Virus record (IMG/VR): IMGVR_UViG_3300041016_000100
Span: 1 to 25,820 of that record
Reading direction: 5' to 3' (one strand)
Source: a virus
DNA length: 25,820 bases
Within the stretch, counting starts at the first letter, position 1; each line of letters opens with the position of its first letter. Below the pieces are notes generated by a model that was given only the letters and a program-made list of their open reading frames with translations, was not told the origin of the DNA and did not search any database. This document shows, in pieces, positions 16,182-25,736 of the stretch. A program made the position numbers and the translations under genes.

Positions 16182-16628
16182 TTACACCTCCAATGCCTCG
16201 TTCAATAATACGGTGACTTTACCATATTGCCTTTGCACTTCTTTGTCTGACCACATTATGTTTCCAAATTCCCTCACTGAATTAATAATGGTTGAATGGT
16301 CGCGGTGGCTGATGTTTCCAATTTCGGTTAATCCCATCACCAATCGCTTTCTGCAAATGTAATTAAACATGTGACGGGCAAATAGCTTTGACCTTTTCCG
16401 CGATGGGCAAAGTATTTCATCGGGTGTTAAATCGGTTACCGTACACACCGCCCTTAATACTTCCTTCCAATGTGTGGGGGTATCGTTTAATTGAATGCGG
16501 GGTTTGATTATTTCCCTTTTTAATTCCTTGACCTGGGAATGGCAATCACTTTGTATTGCTACAATTAATAATCGCAATCGTTTAACTTCTTGTTTGAGTA
16601 AGTGTATTTGTTGGTAATGGCTTGTCAT
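16182..16628 (-). CDS. Stand-alone DnaA domain IV-like DNA-binding protein
   Basis: Start at 16628 (MTSHYQQIHLL) chosen because its ATG overlaps the methyltransferase TGA as ATGA; an ATG at 16715 would overlap by 90 bases. 148 residues. Residues 1-40 form a charged coiled coil. Residues ~53-145 match the C-terminal DNA-binding domain of DnaA: HWKEVLRAVCTVTDLTPDEIL, SRKR (76-79), FARHMFNYICR, LTEIGNISHRDHSTIINSV, including the HRDHST signature at 108-113. The AAA+ ATPase domain is absent, so it could bind DnaA boxes but not act as a full initiator. It may regulate replication or host DnaA activity, and the coiled coil may dimerise it. Confidence 0.8.
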   Translation of the reverse strand: MTSHYQQIHLLKQEVKRLRLLIVAIQSDCHSQVKELKREIIKPRIQLNDTPTHWKEVLRAVCTVTDLTPDEILCPSRKRSKLFARHMFNYICRKRLVMGLTEIGNISHRDHSTIINSVREFGNIMWSDKEVQRQYGKVTVLLNEALEV

Positions 16629-23736: not shown

Positions 23737-24987
23737 TGGGGATGAAATTTTTGGTTCGGTATTTTCCCGATAACTTGTTAACCGCCCTTCGTAAAAAGTC
23801 GGGATGGTTGCACACTCCCCGTTTCTGTTCTTCATAATTATCAATTGAGCATCCTCAACCTCGGGTTTATCATCCAAATAATATGCGGGGCGAAATGGAA
23901 ACATAACGATGTCGGCATCTTGCTCAATGGCCCCCGATTCTCTTAGGTCTGACAACATTGGTCGTTTATCTGCCCGTTCCTCACACTTGCGTGATAATTG
24001 TGCCAATATCATTACAGTCATTTTTAATTCCTTTGCCAACAATTTAAGCCCCCGCGATATTTCTGCAATTTCTTGTTCCCTCATATCCTTTGTACCTTTC
24101 ATCAACTGAATGTAATCAATGACCAATAACCCCAACCCGTGGCGTGACTTGTGTATTTTGGCCTTTGCTTTGATTTGTGATAACCTGGTGTCCACATCAT
24201 CATCTACCCAAAAATTAATTGTCTGTGTATTTGCCATCTCAATTACACTATCAATTTCGTGTCGTTGTAACGATCCGTTTCTAATCTTCCAATTGTCTAT
24301 GTTACCCAATAATGAAACATATCTTTTTGCCAATTGCTCGGATGACATTTCCAAAGATAAAAACAACGCTTTGCCACCCAACTTTGCAAACTCCTTTGTG
24401 AGTGATAATGCCAATGCGGTTTTGCCCATCCCAGGTCTACCCGCCACCACTATCAAATCCCCCTCGTTGTAACCACCCAAATACTTATCCAAAAACTTCC
24501 ACCCCGTTTCACGGCCCGTTAATGCGTTTCCTTTATTGGTGTTCTCAATGATTTTGTCAACCACATTATTCGTCAACTTTATTATTTCCTCGGGTTCTTT
24601 GTTGGTTGAAAATGTTGCCATCTCCATGGCGGTTTGAATATCCTCAACCAAGCTTTGCAAATTCTTATTAATGTCAATCATGCTAATTTTACGCACCAAC
24701 TCATCTCGCAGATACTCATATTCAAGATGTTGTAAATGTGGTTTGATGTCATATATTCCACTTGCTTCTTGTTGTATCTTGATGATTTTAACCATTTCGG
24801 GTCGGTTAAAATGATTCCCCAGTGTTACAATATCAATGGTTTCATCCTCCAAATACATATTGGTCATAACCTCAACCAATCGTTTTGCAAATGGATCGGT
24901 AAACCAATTTTTGTTTACTTGGGGTAAAAAATGACGGGCCGTGTCATAATAAAGAATGTTGGCAAGTACGATTTGTTGTTTGTTCAT
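23725..24987 (-). CDS. dnaB: Replicative DNA helicase (DnaB family)
   Basis: 420 residues. N-terminal primase-interacting region (about 1-100), then GWKFLDKYLGGYNEGDLIVV and Walker A GRPGMGKT at 183-190. LFLSLEMSSEQLAKRYVS follows, then Walker B LLVIDYIQL at 287-295 and the RecA-type LAKELKMTVMILAQLSRK with SDLRESGAIEQDADIV further on. It is the 5'-3' replication helicase of the phage. ATG overlaps the initiator stop as ATGA, an initiator-helicase pair like lambda O/P. No separate loader was seen. Confidence 0.95.
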   Translation of the reverse strand: MNKQQIVLANILYYDTARHFLPQVNKNWFTDPFAKRLVEVMTNMYLEDETIDIVTLGNHFNRPEMVKIIKIQQEASGIYDIKPHLQHLEYEYLRDELVRKISMIDINKNLQSLVEDIQTAMEMATFSTNKEPEEIIKLTNNVVDKIIENTNKGNALTGRETGWKFLDKYLGGYNEGDLIVVAGRPGMGKTALALSLTKEFAKLGGKALFLSLEMSSEQLAKRYVSLLGNIDNWKIRNGSLQRHEIDSVIEMANTQTINFWVDDDVDTRLSQIKAKAKIHKSRHGLGLLVIDYIQLMKGTKDMREQEIAEISRGLKLLAKELKMTVMILAQLSRKCEERADKRPMLSDLRESGAIEQDADIVMFPFRPAYYLDDKPEVEDAQLIIMKNRNGECATIPTFYEGRLTSYRENTEPKISSPFEF

Positions 24988-25664
24988 AGGGTGGCAAGTT
25001 TATGTTTATTTGGTGCAATATCAAGTGGTTTAATTATTTGATATGGTAATTCATCATTCCAACGCTTCTGATTGATGAATGTAGTAAAATGCGGGATGAA
25101 CTCCATTTTCTTGGCATCCTCATGGTTTTGTACATACTTTGGTATAAAGGTCAATAATAATTCCTTTTCGTCATTTCTCAATTTGTTAAATGCCTTTTCG
25201 GCGGTGGCCTTCGTTCCTTTTCTTTTGTATAAATCCCAAAAATGTTGAAACTCATATATACTTTTATTATTTATACTTATAGTATTATCATTATTACTAT
25301 TACAATTCTGATATGAGGGTGGTATCAAATCTGATATGACCCCTCCCTTCAATTCTGATACTACCCCCCTATCCGTTTTGATATGAGGGTAAATCTTCCG
25401 TGCAATGATTTGCATTGATTCATCACGGATTAATTCCCTAGTTAAAAACCCACCTTGTTCCAATATGGCTAATTCCCTTTGAACTGTAATTGTTGTCATG
25501 TTCAAAATCGTTCCAATTGTTTTGTTGGATGGATATGCATACCCACTTCTTTTTGCCATCCCGATTAACATTCCCATTAATACGGCTTGTCTGGGTGTCA
25601 TGTGTTCCAAATACTCGGTGGGGAATAACACAAATAATCCTAATTCTTCGTTCTCATTTTTCAT
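24984..25664 (-). CDS. Replication initiator with winged-helix domain (lambda O-like role)
   Basis: Start MKNENEELGLFV at 25664 chosen because the in-frame ATG at 25736 would force translation through a strong terminator hairpin. 226 residues. The N-terminal ~90 residues form a helix-turn-helix / winged-helix: AYPSNKTIGTILNMTTITVQRELAILEQGGFLTREL. A Ser/Asn-rich linker follows at ~110-135. The C-terminal domain has EFQHFWDLYKRKGTKATAEKAF and HFTTFINQKRWNDELP, of the type seen in phage replication proteins. The linker is encoded by iterons and an AT-rich block. It likely binds the origin and loads the helicase encoded next. Confidence 0.8.
   Translation of the reverse strand: MKNENEELGLFVLFPTEYLEHMTPRQAVLMGMLIGMAKRSGYAYPSNKTIGTILNMTTITVQRELAILEQGGFLTRELIRDESMQIIARKIYPHIKTDRGVVSELKGGVISDLIPPSYQNCNSNNDNTISINNKSIYEFQHFWDLYKRKGTKATAEKAFNKLRNDEKELLLTFIPKYVQNHEDAKKMEFIPHFTTFINQKRWNDELPYQIIKPLDIAPNKHKLATL
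25254..25302. other. AT-rich candidate unwinding element
   Basis: Only 5 of 49 bases are G or C. It lies directly next to the iteron cluster and encodes the Asn/Ser linker of the initiator. On the coding strand the order is iterons then AT-rich block, as in the lambda origin. Confidence 0.65.
25303..25390. repeat. Four iterons, candidate phage replication origin
   Basis: Four 18-bp imperfect direct repeats on the + strand start at 25303, 25326, 25350 and 25373, so they are spaced 23, 24 and 23 bases. The core is C-AATTCTGATATGAGGGT, with variants in the last six bases of copies 2 and 3 and in the first bases of copy 4. The regular spacing within a coding linker, next to an AT-rich block, indicates binding sites for the initiator. 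Confidence 0.75.
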
Positions 25665-25669
25665 AAAAT

Positions 25670-25720
25670 AAAAAACCCCATCAAAATAGTGCAGTTGCGG
25701 TGCGACTATTCTAATAGGGT
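25670..25720 (-). terminator. Intrinsic terminator / attenuator just before the initiator gene
   Basis: On the minus strand a 16-bp stem (25720-25705 with 25690-25675, some G-T pairs) with a 14-base loop is followed by a T tract that reaches 25670. The initiator ATG begins 6 bases after this tract. It may end transcription from upstream genes, or attenuate initiator expression. Confidence 0.75.
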
Positions 25721-25736
25721 AAAAATTGTTTAACAT

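Follow-up and report, generated by a model that had tools for sequence, protein, structure and literature searches.

A putative lambda-like replication origin inside the initiator gene of a metagenomic phage, and signs that initiator and origin are exchanged together

The window analysed here, a virus record of 25,820 bases whose long open reading frames lie nearly all on the minus strand, appears to carry a phage replication origin within the gene that encodes its initiator protein. Judging from the sequence, we put the probability of this reading at about 0.9. Four iterons and an adjoining AT-rich block occupy the linker-coding part of the initiator gene, and the gene of a DnaB-type replicative helicase follows directly, as in a P22-type replication module. 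The features are:

23725-24987, minus strand: gene of the DnaB-type replicative helicase (DnaB_C E 2e-84; phrog_19 E 1e-84)
24984-25664, minus strand: initiator gene, 226 aa from the ATG at 25664, with a winged-helix-like N-terminal domain, a disordered linker, a helical C-terminal domain and a KLATL tail
24987-25001, minus strand: codons of the initiator's C-terminal tail K-L-A-T-L, a tail common to BLAST-distinct initiator types that precede related helicases
25254-25302, minus strand: AT-rich block, the presumed unwinding element (5/49 G/C)
25303-25320, minus strand: iteron 4, ACCCTCATATCAGAATTG, by four-copy score and direct reading
25326-25343, minus strand: iteron 3, GGGGTCATATCAGATTTG; its second dyad arm (TGATA) continues just downstream
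25350-25367, minus strand: iteron 2, GGGGTAGTATCAGAATTG, by four-copy score and direct reading
25373-25390, minus strand: iteron 1, ACCCTCATATCAAAACGG, by four-copy score and direct reading

A sequence-only reading of this DNA had proposed both the 18-bp iterons at intervals of 23/24/23 in the linker-coding part of the gene and, directly 3' of them on the coding strand, the 49-base block with 5 G/C; the coordinates of each were confirmed. The initiator frame is open as far as an ATG at 25736 (24984-25736, 250 aa). Because no alignment of relatives extends upstream of 25664, the ATG at 25664 is probably the true start. The start codon of the helicase gene overlaps the stop codon of the initiator gene (ATGA).

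The iterons, 18 bp each with starts 23, 24 and 23 bases apart on the coding (minus) strand, span codons 92-121 of the initiator, 275-362 nt into the coding region, and are pairwise identical at 9-15 of 18 positions. Their first bases fall at codon positions 2, 1, 1 and 3; with three codon phases represented, a repeated peptide therefore does not explain the array. To quantify the repeats we used a four-copy score, the sum of matches over all pairs among four 14-mers at spacings of 20-26 (maximum 84). The initiator gene scored 66/84, a value equalled by none of 1000 synonymous-codon shuffles (mean 48.1, maximum 64), while the 12 other window genes scored gave 42-53. The positive controls, lambda O and P22 gene 18, reached nearly the same value (65 each, at their annotated origins), indicating tandem repeats inside the initiator coding sequence beyond coding need. 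A weaker first statistic, a single-reference chain of 12-mers, found three copies in the initiator gene and was matched by 27 of 400 resampled genes.

Each iteron is an imperfect dyad of the form TATCA-N4-TGATA, and the iterons of lambda and P22 are dyads too. Arm matches averaged 3.75/5 in the window and 4.25/5 in the related locus L007, with 3/500 and 0/500 column permutations, respectively, doing as well. Outside the array the window holds no exact match to a 13-mer iteron consensus and three with one mismatch; at up to two mismatches there are 29 matches in the whole window, below shuffle expectation. The shorter core CATATCARA has one further copy, at 25037-25045.

In the direction of the initiator gene the iterons come before the AT-rich block, as in lambda. 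Synonymous shuffles of the block average 8.5 G/C and only 7 of 2000 were as low as the 5 seen. Its position is also held, the lowest-G/C 49 nt of the gene lying at about the same place in 16/16 relatives (5-10/49).

Searches with the initiator matched phrog_270, replication initiation protein (E 7.8e-25), over residues 43-233 of the 250-aa frame, covering both domains. Matches to Pfam HTH_36 (E 7e-5, below the Pfam cut-off) and to the O-like PHROGs 391, 678 and 345 (E 7e-5, 4e-4 and 0.03) were weak. A low-confidence AF2 model (mean pLDDT 54) places helices and strands, winged-helix-like, at 16-93 and helices at 139-197, with pLDDT below 50 at 96-137. Since the iterons occupy codons 92-121, the AT-rich block comes next and the structureless part is 96-137, the putative origin would on this model be written almost wholly into the disordered linker. 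A sequence search of the PDB returned nothing credible, and Foldseek with the same model (mean pLDDT 54) gave weak winged-helix matches, including the DnaD N-terminal domain, none at E 0.001. Comparison of the initiator profile by hhalign gave a probability of 0.2 both with lambda O and with P22 gp18. We therefore do not place the protein in the O-like family of lambda O and P22 gp18, and the earlier remark that it is not visibly related to O holds at the sensitivity used. In contrast, the initiator of Erysipelothrix phage SE-1 aligned over 188 columns with a probability of 97.8%.

Relatives were collected from a viral contig scan (16 loci, designated by L numbers, 63-93% protein identity), and a profile-based second scan added L022 and L024; a profile scan of genome contigs with the initiator alignment turned up none in 76 candidate stretches. 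Each set of identical sequences entered the counts as one. Clade A (the window and its closest relatives, L001-L006) keeps all four TATCA sites. Clade B (L007-L010, L012 and L016) is without 24 bp holding one clade-A iteron but has an iteron further upstream, giving a spacing of 22/23/23; within it L010 has one mutated site and the flank is variant in L012. In clade C (L011, L013-L015) three sites are intact and the fourth is degenerate. The array of L022 scores 60 (z 3.4), and that of L050, on the contig of L024, is weak, with poorer sites (57/84, z 4.2; three-copy test null, z 0.3). The number of iterons and the intervals between them are thus largely retained across loci that differ in sequence, protein and site positions.

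The iterons are also conserved at the DNA level. In the six distinct sequences of clade A, synonymous polymorphism affects 1/28 iteron codons versus 58/145 outside the iterons and AT-rich block (Fisher 4.6e-5), and the iteron window is among the three lowest, tied, of 198 thirty-codon windows in synonymous variation. When columns were permuted within amino-acid classes, 0/5000 permutations matched the iterons and 255/5000 the AT-rich block, so that synonymous conservation of the block by itself is borderline. Clade B, taken alone, is uninformative, being too uniform to tell (2/20 versus 15/163). The sequence-only reading had suggested aligning related phages and expected an iteron core conserved beyond amino-acid need, which is what clade A displays; the adverse outcome it named, codon-level conservation in relatives and no repeat, did not occur, a result that favours an origin.

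The helicase gene offers a second view of this locus. From a helicase scan we took the best 80 of 596 loci, of which 75 had an upstream frame of at least 100 aa; the 5 without one were dropped, leaving, with the window, 76 upstream initiator frames for comparison. (In G003, the record of L095, one TGA lies inside the helicase match at 20028-21260; the frame of L095 is 410 aa, and the TGA may simply be the terminal stop.) The initiators fall into seven BLAST-distinct N-terminal types, N1-N7 (25, 18 including one truncated member, 15, 8, 6, 2 and 2), and three C-terminal types. N1 matches DUF6291 and N2, weakly, DUF1376. Representatives of N3, N5 and N6 match phrog_270, and those of N3-N7 match phrog_186. 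Calling the types unrelated would consequently be too strong, and distant kinship among N3-N7 is likely on these profile matches.

A helicase tree of 75 of the 76 rows (L093, whose helicase frame ends after 38 aa, was left out) requires at least 26 changes of N-terminal type, against a minimum of 6 and a shuffled mean of 43; support is weak for many branches of this tree. In two sets of identical helicases the N-terminal types differ, and the helicases of L078 (N1) and L086 (N5) agree at 400/400 residues. L102 and L098 are grouped in the aligned tree, their ungapped 27/400 being due to a three-residue offset. L006 (N3) and L034 (N6) share 98% identity in each of two flanks, one upstream as far as about -777/-720 and one from -28 onward, and the genes between these flanks do not match. 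In L078/L086, L102/L104, L006/L034 and L070/L082/L085 the helicases are nearly or fully identical and the initiators BLAST-distinct, with highly similar flanks in several pairs. Such pairs, with the same helicase and a differing initiator, probably reflect replacement of an initiator-plus-origin cassette.

Do the other initiator types carry origins of their own? Synonymous differences are far fewer in the linker than elsewhere in N1 (0.021 versus 0.283), N2 (0.006 versus 0.304) and N3 (0.093 versus 0.327), a trough reached in 0/2000, 0/2000 and 1/2000 column permutations, respectively. In these whole-type tests the block was picked as the minimum, which biases within-amino-acid counts in its favour; N4 passes only such a within-amino-acid permutation (17/5000) and fails column permutation (109/2000). 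A search for arrays at spacings of 17-30, covering at most four distinct genes per type, found three-copy arrays in N6 (22/23) and N7 (22/22; two sequences each), two good repeat copies in N2, repeats partly mirroring a repeated peptide in N1, and no convincing array in N4 or N5. Signs of an origin are hence seen in 5/7 types, N1-N3 by the synonymous trough and N6 and N7 by an array, with N4 weak and none found in N5.

In 163 of 164 pairs of differing N-terminal type the linker block and the N-terminal domain stay together, the helicase-side homology beginning 3' of the block (types N1-N4 only, at least 90% identity over the helicase side, 45-nt tolerance; the pairs are non-independent). In N1/N2 pairs the homology border lies about -197 to -203 from the helicase start, abutting the 3' edge of the N1 block, and in the other type pairs it is found clearly 3' of the block, at medians of -19 to -80. 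Inheritance of the block with the DNA-binding domain is expected if the block is that domain's target. Taken together, these comparisons suggest that relatives exchange initiator protein and putative site as one cassette.

All 76 initiator frames end in [IL]-A-[TV]-L, and 71 of 76 in K-[IL]-A-[TV]-L, whatever their N- or C-terminal type; three of the five tail codons are variable in their third position. Our preferred reading is that this is a candidate helicase-docking tail. The same conservation could instead reflect constraint on the start of the overlapping helicase gene, or a seam shared in recombination. Building on the docking tail, one may picture an exchangeable origin socket: a near-invariant helicase, the [IL]-A-[TV]-L tail as a universal docking tag that replaces a loader, and at least seven BLAST-distinct DNA-binding domains plugged in repeatedly, each with its own linker origin; competing phages, satellites or host defences that interfere at the origin could be what drives the fast turnover. 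We regard this wider picture as tentative, at somewhat worse than even odds.

In the mechanism that we propose, the winged-helix N-terminal domain would bind the four dyad iterons as dimers, and the bound iterons, two helical turns apart, could assemble an O-some-like complex. The AT-rich block beside them would then melt, and the C-terminal domain with its tail might deliver the phage-encoded DnaB-type helicase to the opened strand. Since the linker beside the DNA-binding domain encodes the sites, protein specificity and target site would be inherited as one unit.

Other functions for the region were weighed. Iteron-binding initiators often autoregulate, and dyads would suit any dimeric winged-helix protein, so that the sites might be operators for the initiator's own control with the origin elsewhere. 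We think this improbable: the sites are 275-362 nt into the coding sequence, away from the promoter and with an AT-rich block next to them, their layout equals that of the annotated lambda and P22 origins, and none of the 12 other genes scored in the window has a comparable array. The sites could in any case serve regulation and origin function at once. An RNA structure in the initiator-helicase mRNA has, in our estimate, a still smaller chance of being what is conserved, and we have mostly rejected it. Predicted folding does exceed chance in the window (z -2.9, 0/200 shuffles as good) and in L001, L013, L022 and L024 (z -2.1 to -2.9), but L007 folds at chance level (z -0.19; 78/200 shuffles as good) and the predicted shapes differ from lineage to lineage. 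Tandem dyads make hairpins anyway, as is likewise predicted for the lambda iterons in the portion of the literature consulted (PMC7466680), and an RNA function would give no obvious reason for an even spacing close to two helical turns.

The low synonymous variation might also belong to a recombination seam, the linker being young through repeated exchange and having no origin function. Initiators are indeed swapped often, and the N1/N2 border abuts the 3' edge of the N1 block; against this, the border in other type pairs is well 3' (medians -19 to -80), placing the block within the moved unit, and a seam leaves the repeat array and the turnover of iterons unexplained. We hold this to be about as improbable as the RNA structure. 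Least credible of all, to the point of being negligible, is an array produced by chance or by the low complexity of the codons for a disordered linker. Abundant N, S, D, K and I residues in this linker account for part of the AT-rich block, but for the iterons the three codon phases, the 0/1000 shuffles and the 0/5000 within-amino-acid permutations refute it. An origin embedded in the initiator gene is the reading that we retain.

A hint at the host comes from the terminase, whose best match among 1018 records, from Flavobacterium psychrophilum phages, shares 52% identity with it; this one gene suggests a Bacteroidota host. GC skew is one-sided with no switch in the window and in a 31.6-kb relative, and is uninformative about an origin because nearly all genes point one way. 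DnaA boxes show no enrichment in the window (34 when one mismatch is allowed, versus 44 expected); five are exact, none of these near the array, and a one-mismatch site lies at 25224. Far from the putative origin, the product of 16182-16715 on the minus strand contains the C-terminal DNA-binding domain of DnaA (Bac_DnaA_C E 5e-15). Also on the minus strand are a C-5 cytosine methylase (16625-17488), a Tet/JBP oxygenase (19544-20380) and an FkbM-type methyltransferase (20301-20993), which together resemble a cytosine hypermodification pathway, as well as ParB-N-like (20990-21565), HNH nuclease (21562-21879), VRR-NUC nuclease (22863-23216) and weakly sigma-70 region 4-like (22277-22927) proteins.

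Looking more widely, the results extend the lambda/P22 plan, in a metagenomic phage, to an initiator family with no detectable kinship to O. That the same plan occurs with such a protein suggests convergence, or selection to keep initiator and target on inseparable DNA. Phages with up to 400/400 identical helicase residues and BLAST-distinct initiators are natural experiments in which the proposition that the origin follows the DNA-binding domain is testable. We note that the synonymous-site trough is a simple locator of hidden intragenic origins where repeats are too degenerate.

Origins inside replication genes have precedents: SPP1 oriL lies inside gene 38, and lactococcal phages have origins in their rep genes. 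The type specificity between O and ori is located in the N-terminal half of O. In P22 (NC_002371) the origin is annotated inside initiator gene 18, where four repeats (65/84) precede an A-rich stretch, and the DnaB-like helicase gene 12 is next to gene 18 and overlaps it. P22 differs in its spacing of 20/24/23 (first interval 20 versus 23 in the window), in its iteron sequence and in its initiator, which is annotated as O-like and has no hhalign kinship with that of the window (probability 0.2). Lambda (NC_001416) likewise has four annotated 18-bp iterons in mid-O, spaced 20/24/23, which are imperfect dyads adjoining an AT-rich tract; O is not detectably related to the window initiator, and the next gene is P, where the window has a DnaB-type helicase. 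The parts of the lambda literature consulted describe an origin in mid-O with iterons that are inverted repeats with predicted hairpins and an AT-rich tract (PMC7466680); four O dimers bind this origin, and host DnaB helicase is the binding partner of P (PMC8508860). The lambda layout that the sequence-only reading saw here, iterons and AT-rich block inside the initiator linker, is supported by its retention in relatives and by the score of 66 versus 65 for lambda and P22. Its comparison of the neighbouring gene with O/P stands in that a helicase gene is next; gene 18/gene 12 of P22 is the closer parallel, because lambda P acts on the host helicase and the neighbour here is itself the helicase. 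The same source, as far as consulted, reports repeats within the gene of the O-like gp56 of Pseudomonas phage MD8 (PMC8508860), which resembles the window in having repeats inside the initiator gene and differs in its O-like/P-like pair and its Pseudomonas host.

Nearer in protein sequence, tblastn relatives of the window initiator occur in SE-1 (NC_029078) and Lacticaseibacillus phage R23.9 (OP869848). In SE-1 the gene, whose product is homologous, holds a four-copy array spaced 22/23/24 (z 6.2), and in R23.9 the initiator gene has one spaced 23/22/23 (z 4.5). Their iteron sequences are unlike those of the window, no origin is annotated in the stretches examined, and the SE-1 initiator gene is followed by two small genes before the next long one. 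The Cormatin initiator has an array spaced 24/24/23 (z 3.0), with two in-frame intervals, so that a peptide explains part of it. These three arrays have p of 0.01 or less among the seven named-phage initiator genes tested with 100 shuffles each; that of PVA1 is marginal (p 0.04), and the initiator genes of ANDSL2_ph1, Vibrio 1.091.O and Javan26 showed no array. The seven come from eight stretches (PfAn1, whose annotated CDS misses the match, was left out), a small pick from 76 initiator and 1448 helicase matches. In the open-access literature consulted we found no description of an origin inside the initiator gene of a Bacteroidota phage. Embedded origins of this kind are already known from lambda and P22, and what the window and its relatives would add is the initiator family, the probable host group and the arrangement in many cassettes.
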